From Siccirubricoccus phaeus (lineage in GTDB: Bacteria > Pseudomonadota > Alphaproteobacteria > Acetobacterales > Acetobacteraceae), in NCBI RefSeq assembly GCF_008360935.1, contig NZ_SRXO01000011.1, forward strand, positions 1-64,000: a stretch of DNA of 64,000 bases, in the 5' to 3' direction. Made by a program: the position numbers and the translations under genes. The notes beneath the pieces were generated by a model. The model did not search any database, was not told the origin of the DNA, and saw only the letters and a list, made by a program, of their open reading frames with translations. Positions 37,709 through 44,150 of this stretch are shown in pieces; position 1 is the stretch's first letter; every line of letters starts with the position of its first letter.

Positions 37709-37811
37709 CGGCGGGGGTATAGCGGCGGCGGGGCGGCGGAGTCCACGCGGCGGGCGCCAGGCGTTGCGGACCGGCGGGAGTCCGCCGCGCTGCCTGCTGG
37801 GGCCGGGGCCT

Positions 37812-38025
37812 GCCGATTGGCCGCCCCGGCCCGCCGAAGGGGCCAGACAATGCCTGCCGATTCGCCGCCCAGGCCTGCCGAAGGGGGCAGGCAATGCCTG
37901 CCGCTTCGCCGCCCAGCCCGCCAAAGGGCCAGGCAATGCTTGGCGGCTCGCCGCCCAGCCCGCCGAAGGGCCAGGCAATGCTTGGCGGCTCGCCGCCCAG
38001 CCTGGGCCAGGCAATGCCCGGTGGC
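37812..38025. repeat. Intergenic minisatellite, 42-44-bp units
   Basis: Five units begin at 37812, 37856, 37900, 37942 and 37984 (steps 44, 44, 42, 42). Each holds a (T/C)CGCCGCCCAG block, G-C-C-G/A-A-A-G-G-G and the near-palindrome AGGCAATGCCT. The mixed 44/42 period is not coding. It fills the divergent gap between cvpA and the FIST gene; the last 110 bp (38026-38134) hold that gene's upstream region. Confidence 0.85.
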
Positions 38026-38134: not shown

Positions 38135-39268
38135 ATGCGGACGGCCACCCTCGCCTGGACGGCACCCTATGGCTGGGACGCGCCGGATGCCGCGGCCGAT
38201 GCCGATCTGGTGCTGTATTTCGGCGACCGCACCACCCTGGCCGATGGCGCCTGCCATGCCGCGCTGCGGGCGGCCGCCCCGGGCGCCCTGCTGCTCGGCT
38301 GTTCCGCTGCCGGGCATCTGGGGCCGGGCGGGCCGGCGGAAACCGGCGCCGTCGCCGCCGCGCTGCGCTTCGAGGGCACCGGGCTGCGCCTGGCCAGCCG
38401 GCCGGTCTCCGGCCCGGCGGACTCCGTGGCGGCCGGCGCGGCGCTGGGCGAGGCGCTGGCGGCGCCGGACCTCGCCGGCATCCTGCTTCTTGCCGACGGG
38501 CTGGCGGTGGCCGGGGCGGCGCTGGCCGCCGGGCTGAGCCGGGCGGTGGGGCCGGGCGTGCCGGTCACCGGCGGGCTCGCGGCGGATGGGGAGGCCTTCA
38601 GCCGCACCCTGGTCGCCGCCGACGCCCCGGCGCGGCCGGGCCTCGTCGCCGCGCTCGGCTTCTACGGCCCGCGCTGCCGCTTCGGCCACGCCCTGGCCGG
38701 GGGCTGGGACGGGTTCGGCCCGCTCCACCGCATCACCCGGGCCGAGCACGACGAAGTGATGGAGCTGGACGGGGAGGCGGCGCTGCCGGTTTATGCCGGC
38801 AGCCTGGGGCCGGACGCGGCCGCCCTGCCCGGGGCCGGGCTGCGCTTCCCGCTGCTGGTGTGGGACCCGGCGGCGCCGGGAGAGGCGGTGGTGCGCAGCG
38901 TGCTGGGGGTGGATCGCACCCGCGGCAGCTTGCGCTTTGCCGGGACGGTGCCGGAAGGCTGGCGGGCGCAATTGCTGCGCTTCCGGCAGAGCCGGCTGGA
39001 AGCCGCCGCCGCCACCGCGGCCCGGGCCGCCGGGCGGGGCGGCCAGGGCAGCCTGGCCCTGCTGACGAGCTGCATCGGCCGCAAGCTGGCGCCCGGCGCC
39101 CAGGCCTCGGCGGAGTTCGCCGCCATCGGCGCCGCCCTGGGCCCGCTGCAGCGGCGGATCGGCTTCTACGCCTATGGCCAATTCGCGCCCCATCCGGCGG
39201 CGGGCGGGGCGGCGCTGCACAATCAGAGCCTGGTCGTCACGCTGCTGGACGAGGATGTGCGGTGCTGA
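38135..39268 (+). CDS. FIST domain sensory protein
   Basis: A 377-aa soluble protein with FIST_N (residues 25-220; L-L-L-G-C-S-A-A-G-H and V-P-V-T-G-G-L-A-A-D) and FIST_C domains (residues 225-360; L-L-T-S-C-I-G-R and I-G-F-Y-A-Y-G-Q-F-A). FIST domains are proposed to sense small ligands, perhaps amino acids, and often act with signalling proteins. No kinase or cyclase gene is adjacent. The final residues L-D-E-D-V-R-C are conserved-looking. Confidence 0.85.
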   Translation: MRTATLAWTAPYGWDAPDAAADADLVLYFGDRTTLADGACHAALRAAAPGALLLGCSAAGHLGPGGPAETGAVAAALRFEGTGLRLASRPVSGPADSVAAGAALGEALAAPDLAGILLLADGLAVAGAALAAGLSRAVGPGVPVTGGLAADGEAFSRTLVAADAPARPGLVAALGFYGPRCRFGHALAGGWDGFGPLHRITRAEHDEVMELDGEAALPVYAGSLGPDAAALPGAGLRFPLLVWDPAAPGEAVVRSVLGVDRTRGSLRFAGTVPEGWRAQLLRFRQSRLEAAAATAARAAGRGGQGSLALLTSCIGRKLAPGAQASAEFAAIGAALGPLQRRIGFYAYGQFAPHPAAGGAALHNQSLVVTLLDEDVRC

Positions 39269-39417: not shown

Positions 39418-40671
39418 TTAGACCGCCCCACCCGAAGCCCAGGCGATCCCCAGGCTTTCCGGAAACGGCCCGCCCCGCCGGTCGATCGGCGTTTCCAGCC
39501 GGATCCCCGGCCGCAACAGCACCCGCCGCACCATTTCCGGGATCAGCACTTCCGCGATATGCCCGCCCAGGCAGGCATGATGCCCCCAGCCGAAATGGAA
39601 GGCGCTGTGGATCGGCCGCATCGGGTCGAAGGCGTCGGGGTTGGCGAAGCGCGCCTCGTCGAAGCTGGCGCTGCCGATCAGCGGCAGCACATGCGTCCCG
39701 GCCGGGATTTCCGTCTCCCACGCCTGCCCGCGGCCGAACACATGCGCGGCGGCGGATTTGCGGAACAGGTAGTTGGACATCGGCGCGAAGCGCAGCGCTT
39801 CCCACACATGCCCGTCGAACAGCTTCGGGTCGGCGAGCTGCGCCGCGGCCACCGCCGCCGCCAGCCGCGGCGGCCGGCGCAGCAGCCATTCGATCACCTG
39901 CGCCGCGGCCTGGGAGGTGGTCTCCACCGCGCCGATCAGCAGCCCGCCGACATTCAGCAGCAGCTTCTCCGGCGGGAAGCCCACCGGCCCGGCGATGCGG
40001 GATTGCAGCAGCCGCGCCACGATGTCGTCGGGCAGGGATTTCCCCGCCCGCAGCGCCGCCGCCCGCTCCCGCAGCAGGCCGGCCAGGTAGTCCTTCATCT
40101 CCGTCAGGCTACGCTGCGCCTCGGCATGGATGCGGTCATGGTCGGCGCCGAGGTCCCAGGGGTAATTGTGGAACCCGTCCATCTGCGCCCAGTAGGACCA
40201 TTCCTGCAGCCTGGCGGCGTCGGACCCCGCGAAGCCGAAATACTCCTGGACCAGCCGCACCGGGATGTGGCGGGTGATGCCGGAGACGGCCTCGATCCGC
40301 TCCCCCGCCCCGTCCAGCACCTTGTCCGTCTCGGCGGCGACGAAGGCGCGGACGCGCGGCAGGTCGCGCCGGTCGAGCATCGCCGTCATCACGCTCTTGT
40401 CCAGCGCGTGGTCCGGCGTCTCGTCCTGCGCCAGCATGTAGACGTTCAGCGCATGCACATAGGGCTGCACGGTGAAGACGGTGGGCAGCCGCAGCACCTC
40501 GATCACGTCGTCGAAGCGCGCCACCAGCGTGCCGACCGGCGTCGCCAGCACCGGCCGGCGGGCGCGCAGCTCGGCGAAGAAGGGGCGCGGGTCCTCGCTG
40601 TTGACCCAGCCCCAGAGGAGGGGGAAGCGCTCCGCCTCCGGCGTCGCATCCAGGCGGTCCAGATAGCTCAT
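39418..40671 (-). CDS. Cytochrome P450
   Basis: A 417-aa soluble bacterial P450. The heme ligand is Cys367 in F-G-W-G-H-H-A-C-L-G-G, fitting F-x-x-G-x-x-x-C-x-G. The K-helix ExxR is E-A-L-R; the I-helix oxygen-activation motif is G-A-V-E-T-T, with the acid and Thr in place. A second conserved site is F-D-P-M-R. No signal peptide or membrane helix is seen, so it is cytosolic. The start codon overlaps the stop of the upstream di-heme cytochrome gene (ATGA), so they are translationally coupled. No ferredoxin or reductase gene is nearby; the substrate is unknown. Confidence 0.92.
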   Translation of the reverse strand: MSYLDRLDATPEAERFPLLWGWVNSEDPRPFFAELRARRPVLATPVGTLVARFDDVIEVLRLPTVFTVQPYVHALNVYMLAQDETPDHALDKSVMTAMLDRRDLPRVRAFVAAETDKVLDGAGERIEAVSGITRHIPVRLVQEYFGFAGSDAARLQEWSYWAQMDGFHNYPWDLGADHDRIHAEAQRSLTEMKDYLAGLLRERAAALRAGKSLPDDIVARLLQSRIAGPVGFPPEKLLLNVGGLLIGAVETTSQAAAQVIEWLLRRPPRLAAAVAAAQLADPKLFDGHVWEALRFAPMSNYLFRKSAAAHVFGRGQAWETEIPAGTHVLPLIGSASFDEARFANPDAFDPMRPIHSAFHFGWGHHACLGGHIAEVLIPEMVRRVLLRPGIRLETPIDRRGGPFPESLGIAWASGGAV

Positions 40672-42497
40672 CGCGGCGCCTCCCAGCGCAGGGGGTTCTT
40701 CAGGTACTCCACCACCGCCAGGCGCTGCGCCGGCGTCAGGGGGCGGCGCGGAAAGGCATGGCCCTGGTTGGAATTCGCCGGCTGCGCCGTGTCGAAGCGG
40801 AACAGGCCGGGTGCCTCGGTGGAGACGAAGCCGAGCTTCTCCACATCCAGCTCCGTGCCGCCCACCCAGAACACCTTGGGGCGCTCGGCGGGCGGGGACA
40901 GCAGATCGTAGATCGTCGGCACGGAGCCATTGTGCAGGAACGGCCCGGTGGCCCAGATGCCGAGCAGCGGCCCGGCCTTCAGGCTTTCCAATTGCGTGGC
41001 CGGCAGGGTCCAGGCTTCCGGCCCCAGCCGGGCCAGCCGGCCATCGGTGATGGCGCAGGCGTTGCGCACCTCGAAGGCGCCGGCAGGGCGGGGGATCTGC
41101 GCGGCCATGCGGCGGGTCACGCCGCCGGGGCAGGCGCGGGCCTCGCCGGTATCCAGCAATTGCCGGCGCGTCAGCCCGGCCGCCGCGGTGCCGGTCTCCA
41201 CCACCTGCCTCACCGTGCCGAGGAAATAGCTGGCCGCCGGCACCTCCGCCTGGTTGTCGAACAGGTCGGCCAGCGGCCCGGTGCGGATGCGCCAGCCCTG
41301 CAGCGCGTCCAGATAGCTGCGGTCGGTGCCGACCACGCGCTGCGGCACCGCGCTGATGGTGATGAATTGCTCGCCGTCCAGGGATTGCCGCGGATCGGTC
41401 AACCGGTAGGGCGGCATGTTGTGGCAGCCCTGGCAATTTCGCTGGAACAGCCGCGCCCCTTCCGTCCAGCGGGCGCGGTCGATGGCGCCGAAGCGCGCTT
41501 CCGGCCAGGCGGGCGGCTCCAGGTCGCGCAGCCAGTCCTCCAGCGCCGCCAGCGCCTGGAAGTAGACGGAGGAGCCGAAGCGCCCTGGCGTGCCCGGGGC
41601 GGCGAGGCTGGCCTCGCCGAAGACCCCCAGCACCTCCCCGGCATTCCGGCCGACCGGGGAGCTGGCGATCGGCACCCATTGCACCCAGTCCTGCCGCGGC
41701 GCGGTCCAGAGGAAGGGGTAGGAGACCGGGGCACGGGGCGGCCGGCGATTGGCCTCCGTCACCTCCGCCGGGGCGGCGAGGTGCAGCACGGCGATGCTGT
41801 TGATGATCTGCCCCAGCGCATCGACGCGGGAGAAGCCCGAGGCATGCGCCGGGCGCTGCACCGCGGCATGCCGGGCGCTGGCGGCGGCGAAGGCGGCATA
41901 GGGCTCGGCGAGCACCGCCGGGGTGGTGCCGAGGCGGAGCGCGAAACCGGCGAAGCGGGTGCGGTCGCGCTGCGTGGCCTGCACCGCTGCGTCCAGATCG
42001 GCGACGAAGCGGTCGAAGTCGAAGCGGGCCGGCGCGCCCTCGATGCGCAGGCGGGTGCGGCCGAAACTCACCTCCCCGGTATGGCAGGCGGCGCAGGTCA
42101 GGCCGAGCCAGGGGCCGGTGAGCGGCGCCGGCTCGGGGTCGATGGCGAAGCCGATGGGCAGCTTGTCCGGGTTCAGCCCGGTGCCGGCATCCGGCGCGAA
42201 GAACAGCCCGTAGCGGGCGAGATTCGCCGGCGCGGCGAAGCGGCCTTCGCCATCGGTGCGGTCCAGCGCGGTGAACCAGGCGCGGGGGATGAGGCGGGAG
42301 CCCTGGGCGGAGAAATGGAAGCGGGCGGCTAGCTCCGGCGACCAGCCCTGCGGCAGGGTCTCCGCCTGTTCCTCCGGCAGGGACCAGGGGACCTGGCTGG
42401 GGGCGGGGGGCGGCGGGTTCCAGGGGAGCACGTTGCAGGCGCCGAGCAGCAAGGCCGCGGCCAGCCCCACCCATTTCGCAGCCTGCTGCCTGCGCAT
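40668..42497 (-). CDS. Di-heme cytochrome c lipoprotein (CcP/RoxA-like)
   Basis: A 609-aa exported protein. The lipobox L-L-G-A-C gives Cys21 as the lipidated residue. Two c-type heme sites are present: CAACH (Cys135, Cys138, His139) and CQGCH (Cys355, Cys358, His359). The C-terminal W-A-T-G-P-F-L-H-N-G-S-V-P-T-I-Y-D-L-L motif is shared by di-heme peroxidase-like proteins and the rubber oxygenase RoxA. Size (about 600 aa) is nearer RoxA than a classical 340-aa cytochrome c peroxidase. Peroxidase, oxygenase or electron-carrier roles are all open. The start is placed at MRRQQAAKW, which gives a proper signal sequence; an in-frame ATG lies 11 codons upstream. Confidence 0.87.
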   Translation of the reverse strand: MRRQQAAKWVGLAAALLLGACNVLPWNPPPPAPSQVPWSLPEEQAETLPQGWSPELAARFHFSAQGSRLIPRAWFTALDRTDGEGRFAAPANLARYGLFFAPDAGTGLNPDKLPIGFAIDPEPAPLTGPWLGLTCAACHTGEVSFGRTRLRIEGAPARFDFDRFVADLDAAVQATQRDRTRFAGFALRLGTTPAVLAEPYAAFAAASARHAAVQRPAHASGFSRVDALGQIINSIAVLHLAAPAEVTEANRRPPRAPVSYPFLWTAPRQDWVQWVPIASSPVGRNAGEVLGVFGEASLAAPGTPGRFGSSVYFQALAALEDWLRDLEPPAWPEARFGAIDRARWTEGARLFQRNCQGCHNMPPYRLTDPRQSLDGEQFITISAVPQRVVGTDRSYLDALQGWRIRTGPLADLFDNQAEVPAASYFLGTVRQVVETGTAAAGLTRRQLLDTGEARACPGGVTRRMAAQIPRPAGAFEVRNACAITDGRLARLGPEAWTLPATQLESLKAGPLLGIWATGPFLHNGSVPTIYDLLSPPAERPKVFWVGGTELDVEKLGFVSTEAPGLFRFDTAQPANSNQGHAFPRRPLTPAQRLAVVEYLKNPLRWEAPR

Positions 42498-42589: not shown

Positions 42590-42720
42590 ACAAAGGGGGC
42601 TTCGCCGGGGCTCTGCCTCTGGACCCCGGCAGGGGGCGCTGCCCCCGTTGGCGGCAGTGCCGCCAACCTCCCGCCGGGGGGAAGGCTTCCCCCCGGACCC
42701 TGCCGTGAGTCTGCCGGTTG
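42590..42720. repeat. GC-rich repeat upstream of the nitronate monooxygenase gene
   Basis: Contains GGGGGCGCTGCCCCC, TTGGCGGCAGTGCCGCCAA and GGGGGGAAGGCTTCCCCCC arms and ends TGCCGTGAGTCTGCCGG. It belongs to the same vocabulary as the elements at 34488 and 39262 but lacks a clear full core. It lies between divergent genes. Confidence 0.6.
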
Positions 42721-42770
42721 GACCGGGTGCGGCTCTGGCGCAGGGCGGCGGGCCGGGCCAGCATGGGGGC

Positions 42771-43733
42771 ATGCGCGCCTCGCTCGAAACCCGTGTCACC
42801 CGCCTGCTCGGCATCCGCTACCCCATCGTGCAGGGAGGGCTGGCGAGAGTAGCCACCGCCGAACTCGCCGCCGCGGTCTCGGAAGCCGGCGGGCTCGGCC
42901 AGATCGCCAGCGCCGGCCTCGCCGGCCCGGAGGCGCTGCGCGCCGAAATCCGCCGCTGCCGGGCGCTGACGGAGAAGCCCTTCGCGGTGAACTTCCCGAT
43001 CGGCCGGCAGGACATCTGGCCCGGGCTGGAAGCGACGCTGGAGGAAGGCGTGCGCATCATCGCGCTGACCGCCGGCAACCCTGCGCCCTACATCAAGCGT
43101 TGCCAGGAGGTGGGGGCGAAGACCCTGGTGCTGACCGCCGGGCCGGAACTGGCGCGGAAGGCCGAGGCCGCCGGCGCCGACATGGTGGCGACCGTCGGCT
43201 ATGAGGGTGGCGGGCATCTCGGCCGCTCGGATGAGACGACCATGGTCATGGTCCCCCGCACCGTGGCGGCGGTGAGGATTCCGGTGCTGGCCTCGGGCGG
43301 CATCGCCACCGGGGCGGGGCTGCTGGCGGCGCTGGCGCTCGGCGCCGAGGGGGTGGAAATGGGCACCCGCTTCGTCGCCGCGGCCGAGGCGAAGGCCCAC
43401 CCCGCCTACAAGCAGGCCCTCGCCGCGGCGCAGCCGGGCGAGACCATGATCATCAAGAAGACCCTCGGCATGCCCGGCCGCGTGCTCATCAGCCCCTATG
43501 CCGAGCGCATCGTCGCGGCCGAGGCGGCCGGCGCGCCGAAGGAGGAGATCGTGGCGATGATCGCCGGCACCGCCAATGCCCGCGGCACCGATGAGGGCGA
43601 CCTCGCCGGCAGCTATGTCTGGGCCGGGCAATGCGTCGGGTTGATCGACCGGGTAGAGCCGGCCGGCGCCATCGTCGAATGCATGGTGGCGGAGGCCGAG
43701 GCGGGCCTGGCGCGGCTGCGGGCGATGTTCTGA
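42771..43733 (+). CDS. Nitronate monooxygenase / FabK-like FMN protein
   Basis: A 320-aa TIM-barrel flavoprotein. Family features: P-I-V-Q-G-G-L-A-R-V-A near residue 17, G-G-L-G-Q-I-A-S-A, A-V-N-F-P-I, a phosphate-binding L-A-S-G-G-I-A-T-G-A-G, and G-A-E-G-V-E-M-G-T-R-F. The G-Y-E-G-G-G-H motif has the conserved His of this superfamily. It could be a nitronate monooxygenase (2-nitropropane dioxygenase) or act in another FMN-dependent oxidation; substrate not deducible. The ATG at 42771 begins the conserved part; the frame upstream lies in repeat. Confidence 0.86.
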   Translation: MRASLETRVTRLLGIRYPIVQGGLARVATAELAAAVSEAGGLGQIASAGLAGPEALRAEIRRCRALTEKPFAVNFPIGRQDIWPGLEATLEEGVRIIALTAGNPAPYIKRCQEVGAKTLVLTAGPELARKAEAAGADMVATVGYEGGGHLGRSDETTMVMVPRTVAAVRIPVLASGGIATGAGLLAALALGAEGVEMGTRFVAAAEAKAHPAYKQALAAAQPGETMIIKKTLGMPGRVLISPYAERIVAAEAAGAPKEEIVAMIAGTANARGTDEGDLAGSYVWAGQCVGLIDRVEPAGAIVECMVAEAEAGLARLRAMF

Positions 43734-43803
43734 CCTTCTCGCCCACCATCGGAAGGAAAGTCCGCCCTCCCGCCGCCACCGATCCGAGGGGAGCGGCGGC
43801 GCT

Positions 43804-44150
43804 GCCGCCAACCGGGGCGGGCGAAGCCATGCCTCCATCTCCTGCTCCCGCTTGCCGGGCCTGATGGCGCTGCCGCCAACCGGGGTGGGCGAAGCCATGC
43901 CTCGTCTCCTACTCCCGACTGCCGGGCCTGATGGCGCTGCCGCCAACCGGGGTGGGCGAGGCATGCCTTCCGCCTCCTGCTCCCGCTTGCCGGGCCTGAT
44001 GGCGCTACCGCCAACCGGGGCGGGCGAGGCATGCCTCCGTCTCCTGCTCCCGCTTGCCGGGCCTGATGGCGCTGCCGCCAACCGGAGCGGGCGAAGCCAT
44101 GCCTCGTCTCCTGCTCCCGCTCGCGGGGACTGGCGGCGCTACCCATCGGA
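43804..44150. repeat. Intergenic minisatellite, 67/68-bp units
   Basis: Five units begin G/A-C-C-G-C-C-A-A-C-C-G-G at 43804, 43872, 43939, 44007 and 44074 (steps 68, 67, 68, 67). Each includes GGGCGA(AGC)CATGCCT, TCTCCTGCTCCCGCTTGCCG and GGGCCTGATGGCGCT. The alternating 67/68 period excludes a coding repeat. The gap 43734-44218 holds only this array and the hairpin that follows. Confidence 0.88.

Follow-up and report, generated by a model that had tools for sequence, protein, structure and literature searches.

In Siccirubricoccus phaeus, a di-haem c-type cytochrome and a cytochrome P450 are encoded by two adjacent, overlapping genes. The DNA analysed here (the window) is a stretch of 64,000 nucleotides (nt) from contig NZ_SRXO01000011.1 of a 6.55 Mb genome. 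By translation, 40668-42497 on the reverse strand encodes the cytochrome (609 amino acids (aa); P0001), and 39418-40671 on the same strand encodes the P450 (417 aa; P0002). The interval given in the original prediction spans the cytochrome alone, and the P450 lies just outside it. The stop codon of the first gene and the start codon of the second share four bases, ATGA (40668-40671). The features of the pair, all on the reverse strand (-), are as follows.

40668..42497 (-): RoxA/FadCcp-like di-haem cytochrome c of 609 aa (P0001), proposed exported lipid dioxygenase (translation, family profiles, fold against RoxA 4b2n with Z 16.0)
42435..42446 (-): lipobox LGAC, residues 18-21 (LLLGAC21), from the sequence
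42081..42095 (-): first c-haem site CAACH, residues 135-139 (sequence; C135, C138 and H139 in 37 of 38 aligned rows, the other row being gapped)
41676..41681 (-): Q273-W274, at the position of Q250-W251 (inter-haem Trp) of Pseudomonas aeruginosa PA2077 (Q in 37/38, W in 29/38 and Y in 8/38 rows; PMC4496055; equivalence by motif, not by superposition)
41619..41621 (-): F293, proposed equivalent of RoxA F317 and PA2077 F269, from order and spacing
41421..41435 (-): second c-haem site CQGCH, residues 355-359 (sequence; 38/38 rows)
40917..40934 (-): HNGSVP motif, residues 522-527, Pfam RoxA-like_Cyt-c (HNGS in 38/38 rows)
40758..40760 (-): H580, proposed distal axial ligand of the second haem, aligned with RoxA H641 (38/38 rows)
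40668..40671 (-): ATGA overlap of cytochrome stop and P450 start (sequence; present too in both genus relatives)
40679..40683 (-): GGAGG, Shine-Dalgarno-like site of the P450, inside the cytochrome gene (sequence)
39418..40671 (-): cytochrome P450 of 417 aa (P0002), proposed second enzyme (translation, Pfam, PDB matches)
39919..39924 (-): I-helix acid-alcohol pair E250-T251 of the P450 (alignment)
39571..39573 (-): haem-thiolate Cys367 of the P450 (alignment)

The ATGA overlap, the lipobox at Cys21, the two c-haem sites and the HNGSVP motif had all been described in the original prediction, and translation confirms each of them. The overlap had also been read as implying joint synthesis. It does allow coupled translation, but GGAGG lies 7 nt 5' of the P450 start, so the P450 may also start independently and the overlap is no proof of coupling. 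The P450 was said to have no export signal, which agrees with its highest 12-residue hydropathy within the first 60 residues, 1.57 against 2.36 for the cytochrome, as given by a crude measure rather than a signal-peptide predictor. A simple script of the same kind finds an N-terminal hydrophobic segment in 36 of 37 P450-adjacent di-haem proteins (the other one is a fragment) and a lipobox-like pattern in 13; by this script, the N-termini of these cytochromes appear to be of the exported or membrane-anchored kind.

The cytochrome matches the NCBIfam model NF040606, "di-heme-cytochrome C peroxidase", with 481.1 bits (cut-off 150) over residues 52-600, and it also matches Pfam PF21419 (RoxA-like), for which a search of 14 control genomes gave a sole match, below the cut-off, in E. 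coli. Against the NCBIfam models of the RoxA, RoxB and RoxC rubber dioxygenases it scores 46.4-56.8 bits, far from their cut-offs of 900-1000, and CCP_MauG (PF03150) is absent among its Pfam matches at E 0.001. An AlphaFold2 model built from 33 sequences (pLDDT 83.6, pTM 0.84) superposes on RoxA (4b2n) with Z 16.0 and a root-mean-square deviation (rmsd) of 3.5 over 392 aligned residues. The next fold matches, hydrazine synthase, CcP and MauG, reach Z 11.0 or less, with MauG and CcP at about 10 or less. Foldseek also places the model on RoxA (E 2.8e-10, TM 0.47 by query), although its rmsd of 10.2 over 685 columns denotes a loose rigid superposition. Judged by this model, the di-haem protein is RoxA-like by fold, as had been proposed for the first enzyme, with an identity of 16-21% in the structure matches.

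In one spacing the protein agrees with PA2077 and not with RoxA. The HNGSVP His and the axial His are 58 residues apart in the window protein, as they are in PA2077 (58; PA2078 has 60), against 124 in RoxA (PMC4496055, Table 1). In the 37 of 39 rows of P450-adjacent di-haem proteins that could be scored, it is 55-72, and in 21 other di-haem rows it is 56-89, so that this feature is not specific. By alignment, E288 and F293 both fall in the presumed distal segment of the first haem; position 288 is Glu in 35 of 38 rows and Gln in three. Phe occupies the F293 position in 27 of the 36 scored P450-adjacent proteins against 5 of the 15 scored others, a difference that comes partly from relatedness.

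As a unit, the pair is conserved between genera and between phyla. It is present in all three genomes of the genus that were searched, the source genome included, each time with the 4-base ATGA overlap. The P450s of the two relatives are 91-92% identical to that of the window and the cytochromes 73-83%; the nearest named relatives are Siccirubricoccus soli and S. deserti. A relative of the di-haem protein was found at 1e-20 in 10 of 200 genomes of the order. As a background sample, 385 genomes were drawn evenly from the class. Six of them encode a P450 of this clade at 1e-40, of which three adjoin a di-haem gene and three a DyP-like gene with a partner of about 500 aa. The di-haem family is found at 1e-40 in 14 of the 385, three times beside this P450, three times beside a catalase-related gene and eight times beside neither, as far as the queries used can tell (two of these eight loci are on contigs shorter than 7.5 kb). 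The P450 thus usually occurs with a haem partner, whereas the di-haem protein also occurs without this P450. Hosts of the di-haem-type pair include Pseudomonadota, Cyanobacteriota, Bacteroidota and Verrucomicrobiota; those in the last two phyla are metagenome bins, so contamination is possible there. In a di-haem tree of 75 rows, the window protein falls in a fully supported set of 13, all of them P450-adjacent; the place of the Adonisia row is unsure. Distances among the P450s and among the cytochromes are correlated (Mantel r 0.81, 36 pairs, 0 of 2000 permutations), but shared species history has not been separated out of this value, which does not count here as proof. With this survey, the pairing that the original prediction asked to be traced across genera is found in many genera and several phyla, and it is not restricted to one strain. 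For part of the P450 clade, a different conserved partner was found instead, an outcome that the original prediction had named as one that would refute it.

This exchange of partners became visible when relatives of the P450 were collected by an alignment-based scan of genome contigs, of which the best 80 of 134 were kept. Partners were called by blastp with a handful of known queries within 2.5 kb of the P450. A RoxA-like di-haem gene was found at 37 of the 80 loci, a PF03098-type gene (related to those of the Rhizobium proteins) at 24, a DyP-like pair at one and none of these at 18. No locus has both a di-haem and a PF03098-type gene, however far apart in the flanks. Among the 37 di-haem genes, 34 lie upstream on the same strand, 31 of those within 130 nt or overlapping, and the remaining three lie downstream or divergent; at three Methylobacterium loci, a regulator-like gene stands between the di-haem gene and the P450. 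All 24 PF03098-type genes are downstream of the P450, on the same strand and within 250 nt. In a P450 tree of 89 rows, two changes suffice for the di-haem/PF03098 label, and a fully supported branch sets the five DyP-type rows apart from the rest; the placement of distant P450 rows, which have long branches, is unsure. Some loci need comment: L114 consists of two open reading frame (ORF) fragments and was excluded when Mantel pairs and N-termini were counted, but it remains among the 37 and in the trees; L104 duplicates genome G525, and L057 seems to be G057; and the contig of L120 ends just upstream of the P450 match.

For the 18 genomes with no adjacent partner, the search was extended to the whole genome. 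In twelve of them a di-haem protein is encoded elsewhere (E < 1e-120), with no PF03098-type match at 1e-20, and in four a PF03098-type protein is encoded (E < 1e-180), with no di-haem match at 1e-20. Of the other two, L087 (Nostoc) has weak partial di-haem matches only, and L076 a weak PF03098-type match only. Against the background of the 385 class genomes, in which 14 have the di-haem protein at 1e-40 and two the PF03098-type protein at 1e-100, these numbers are well beyond chance: Fisher p is 5e-12 and 4e-5, respectively, values that are uncorrected for relatedness, with fewer candidates scored per background genome and four of the 18 genomes outside the class. Two cyanobacteria, L087 and L098, carry a lipoxygenase gene downstream of the P450 (PF00305, 42.5 and 37.1 bits; cut-off 23.6). 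L098 is also among the four genomes with a PF03098-type protein, whose gene is 3 kb from the P450, so there are two kinds of dioxygenase gene there.

The alternative partners of the P450 point mostly to fatty acids, as judged from their sequences. The PF03098 (animal haem peroxidase) partners are like cyclooxygenases (COX) and fungal dioxygenases (DOX) by sequence: the YRWH motif, with its catalytic Tyr and proximal His, is kept in 25 of 25 of them, and in fungal linoleate diol synthase this motif is identified as the site of the tyrosyl radical (PMC4496055). The Rhizobium etli partner, the sole one searched against the PDB, matches COX-2 first (5e-57), with the best non-COX peroxidase at 2e-19. 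Lipid-related genes also lie close to some of the loci. In Actinomycetes, 16 COX-type loci share a neighbour family whose sole scanned member (L115:4725-5726) is a fatty-acid desaturase; the neighbour-cluster script also yields wrong-strand ORFs, and evidence was limited to clusters with a Pfam-confirmed member. In Bradyrhizobium, an oleate hydratase gene lies about 3 kb from the pair, and on the plasmid of S. fredii NGR234 a catalase gene is followed by a hypothetical gene, the di-haem gene and one annotated as patatin-like. Catalase-related genes adjoin di-haem relatives in three of the 14 class genomes. Genes of this kind at L155:2581-3753, L156:4488-5627 and L157:4750-5889, each directly next to a di-haem relative, were identified by blastp and are below or near the Pfam threshold. 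Those of L156 and L157 encode proteins with lipoprotein-like N-termini, so a di-haem protein and a catalase-related protein may share one compartment. The two positions of the di-haem protein, beside the P450 and beside a catalase-related protein, are thus those in which fatty-acid dioxygenases are found elsewhere.

The P450 itself is complete: it matches PF00067 with 66.3 bits (cut-off 22.8) and has ExxR (291-294), FxxGxHxCxG and Cys367. Its best matches among solved structures are the CYP142 steroid C26-monooxygenases. The acid-alcohol pair E-T is kept in 39 of 39 rows of di-haem-type P450s. In COX-type rows the acid is Glu in 27 of 27, and the alcohol is Ser in 13 and Asn in five instead of Thr; in DyP-type rows, Pro is at the acid position in three of five. 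The O2-activating pair is therefore not constant across the clade, parts of which look less bound to O2/electron chemistry. Hydroperoxide-using P450s of the CYP74 type are not known to have an I-helix acid-alcohol pair, and a CYP74-like identity by motif was rejected for the window P450, in which E250-T251 is present as in the other di-haem-type rows. With this pair kept, the window P450 could still use O2 and electrons.

The absence of a nearby ferredoxin or reductase, which had been noted in the original prediction, stands for the two families examined. None of the 17 places in the genome that match Fer2 (PF00111) is on the contig of the window, and none of the 52 that match Pyr_redox_2 (PF07992) is in the window; the sole one on the contig is about 49 kb from the P450. 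A tblastn search with the genome's own two adrenodoxin-like ferredoxins found no relative in the 80 P450 loci or the window, while positive controls were found; L063 gave a weak match to a ferredoxin of another type. The genome has three P450s, and one of the other two (contig C6, 46625-49920) has Fer2 and PF07992 genes within about 2.5 kb, a conventional P450 electron-transfer set. The di-haem protein was set aside as an electron donor to the P450, the cytochrome being exported and the P450 having no signal.

We propose, with a probability of roughly 0.6, that the gene pair is a two-step lipid-oxygenation (oxylipin) module: a di-haem dioxygenase outside the cytosol would form a lipid hydroperoxide, and a cytosolic P450 would go on to convert it. 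Relatives in other bacteria keep the P450 and swap the first enzyme for other fatty-acid-oxygenating kinds, so the pair probably makes oxylipins in two steps; cyclooxygenase-like proteins, lipoxygenases and PA2077 all oxygenate fatty acids. The analysis shows the pair, its conservation, the RoxA-like fold and the exchange of partners, whereas the fatty-acid substrate, the hydroperoxide, its transport and the P450 reaction are what we infer. The di-haem lipoprotein would be exported and anchored on the periplasmic side, where, like PA2077, it would add O2 to an unsaturated fatty acid or a similar acyl lipid. The resulting hydroperoxide, or its alcohol, would enter the cytosol, and the P450 would convert it, most likely by means of the O-O bond of the hydroperoxide itself, as an isomerase or a diol or epoxy-alcohol synthase does; this last step is suggested because no ferredoxin or ferredoxin-reductase gene of the tested families is nearby. 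The role of the pair would be either to produce a defined oxylipin or to limit a toxic hydroperoxide.

Several observations weigh against this proposal. The likeness to PA2077 is one of motifs and spacing, not of direct sequence comparison, and both the spacing and the fold are common to the entire di-haem family, so they do not mark its P450-linked part. No PDB search aligned the distal-haem segment (the best match of the single-sequence search was RoxA over 55 residues, and profile searches gave separate stretches), so the equivalence of F293 and RoxA F317 remains a motif argument. The di-haem family is wider than the pair: 11 of its 14 class genomes lack an adjacent P450 of this kind (two of these loci are on the short contigs), none of the nine loci of the same taxonomic family from other genera has such a P450 beside the di-haem gene (one of these genomes appears to carry it elsewhere), and the P450-adjacent proteins are not one clade, falling in several places of the 75-row tree. 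The class genomes in which this P450 was found include neither of the two that carry a COX-like gene. The DyP-like partners are no known lipid dioxygenases and alone do not point to lipids, and the S. fredii catalase and patatin score below their Pfam cut-offs. All 39 di-haem-type P450s keep the E-T pair of O2-activating monooxygenases, and an exported and a cytosolic enzyme need a transfer step between them.

The retained E-T pair leads directly to the most serious rival, in which the first step is the same and its lipid product is hydroxylated by a P450 of the ordinary monooxygenase kind, with O2 and with electrons from ferredoxins and reductases encoded elsewhere. The genome offers 17 Fer2 and 52 PF07992 places elsewhere, and the CYP142 structure matches are to enzymes of this sort. 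On the other hand, an adrenodoxin-like ferredoxin was not found in the 80 loci, and the acid-alcohol pair varies in the COX-type (Ser in 13 and Asn in five of 27) and DyP-type P450s (Pro in three of five). We regard this rival as having a real though minor chance of being right. A stress-defence role is considerably less probable: here the di-haem protein would be a peroxide-detoxifying or MauG-like protein-modifying peroxidase, the P450 would clear oxidised lipid, and no biosynthesis would be involved. The family name fits this, as does E288, which could act as a distal acid, and overexpressed PA2077 is toxic in a way that co-expressed PA2078 removes (PMC4496055). However, PF03150 is not matched, the MauG and CcP folds lie well below RoxA in Z, and exchange with COX-like proteins is left unexplained.

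The original prediction had instead placed outside the cell an enzyme that cleaves or oxidises a large hydrophobic substrate, with the P450 acting on the imported product; it is taken here as RoxA-like cleavage of polyisoprene, a terpene, an alkane or another large hydrophobic compound. A two-step pathway across two compartments is still what fits best. RoxA is by far the best fold match of the window protein and shares its HNGSVP motif, but scores of 46-57 bits against the RoxA/B/C cut-offs, a spacing of 58 and not 124, and swap partners drawn mostly from fatty-acid dioxygenase families speak against cleavage, which we now consider quite improbable; rubber or terpene cleavage was demoted on the scores and the spacing. 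Since the alternative partners are mostly from lipid-dioxygenase families, their discovery redirects the two-step idea rather than ending it.

The two-step lipid-oxygenation reading can be set beside a few known systems, of which the P. aeruginosa diol synthase, the fungal DOX-CYP fusions and the Nostoc dioxygenase/lyase pair come nearest. PA2077 is a di-haem oleate 10S-dioxygenase that forms the oleate diol synthase together with PA2078 (PMC4496055, PMC6377657), both enzymes are mainly periplasmic (PMC6377657), and their products act as signals (PMC6377657, PMC5155153). Like the window, PA2077/PA2078 (FadCcp) is a two-gene operon with an exported di-haem RoxA-like protein, two CxxCH sites and HNGSVP; PA2077 also shares the spacing of 58 from HNG to the axial His and a Q-W before the distal site. 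Unlike the window, its second enzyme is another periplasmic di-haem protein and not a cytosolic P450. The fungal linoleate diol synthases (PMC13049297) resemble the bacterial clade, as read here, in that a haem dioxygenase and a P450 with HxCxG work one after the other, and their YRWH motif is carried by the PF03098-type partners of the clade. The fungal enzymes are fused, whereas the bacterial genes are separate and the proposed dioxygenase of the window is a non-homologous, exported c-type di-haem protein. In Nostoc, as proposed for the pair, a second haem enzyme acts on the hydroperoxide made by the first, a COX-like linoleate 10S-dioxygenase, but in the account given there (PMC13049297) this second enzyme is a catalase-related hydroperoxide lyase and no P450. 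RoxA (PDB 4b2n) shares with the window protein the overall fold, the two c-haems, HNGSVP and the C-terminal axial His, and differs in its low identity (16-21%) and in a longer stretch from HNGSVP to the axial His. We know of no P450 partner of RoxA. In line with the original prediction, which knew of no described system with this exact pair, neither the di-haem/P450 pair nor the partner swap is described, judging by title and start of abstract, among the matches listed from the open literature, which mostly leaves out subscription papers.

More tentatively, and at somewhat less than even odds, we suggest that a single clade of bacterial P450s supplies the second enzyme to several unrelated kinds of lipid-oxygenating protein, namely RoxA-type di-haem, cyclooxygenase-like and probably lipoxygenase proteins and the DyP-like pair. 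The window would then hold a split-compartment oxylipin relay, in which a periplasmic hydroperoxide is remodelled in the cytosol, perhaps into a signal, as a free-standing bacterial counterpart of the fungal DOX-CYP fusions. The roles and routes of prokaryotic oxylipins are still little known (PMC5155153), and a P450 clade whose presence points to lipid-dioxygenase partners in Proteobacteria, Actinomycetes, Cyanobacteria and others would be a simple handle for finding such pathways. It also suggests a substrate class for proteins named only "di-heme-cytochrome C peroxidase". According to a published idea, fungal diol synthases derive their P450 halves from a bacterial P450 that had at one time been fused to a protein of the cyclooxygenase family (PMC13049297), and the bacterial clade makes this idea testable.

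Some further observations concern P450 loci outside the genus. In L098 (Cyanobacteria bacterium UBA11370; 6001-13272), the P450, the lipoxygenase, the COX-like gene and a catalase-related gene (below the Pfam cut-off) follow one another and make up a compact candidate cluster for oxylipins. L107 encodes, immediately upstream of its P450 (5221-5865), a small protein that has a signal-like N-terminus and matches no Pfam family; six other loci of the alphaproteobacterial COX-type branch have relatives of it. The DyP-like protein and the protein of about 500 aa (no Pfam match in the members scanned) stand beside distant P450s of the clade at L028:4919-7917, L122:2368-5224 and L033-L035.

Within the window, a nitronate monooxygenase/FabK-like flavoprotein gene (42648-43733, forward strand) diverges upstream of the pair and is kept in both genus relatives, and a gene for a FIST-domain protein (38135-39268, forward strand) converges on it from downstream. 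Two tandem arrays are present, one of a 67-base GC-rich unit in about five copies at 43798-44140 and one of a 42-base unit in 4.5 copies at 37808-38002.

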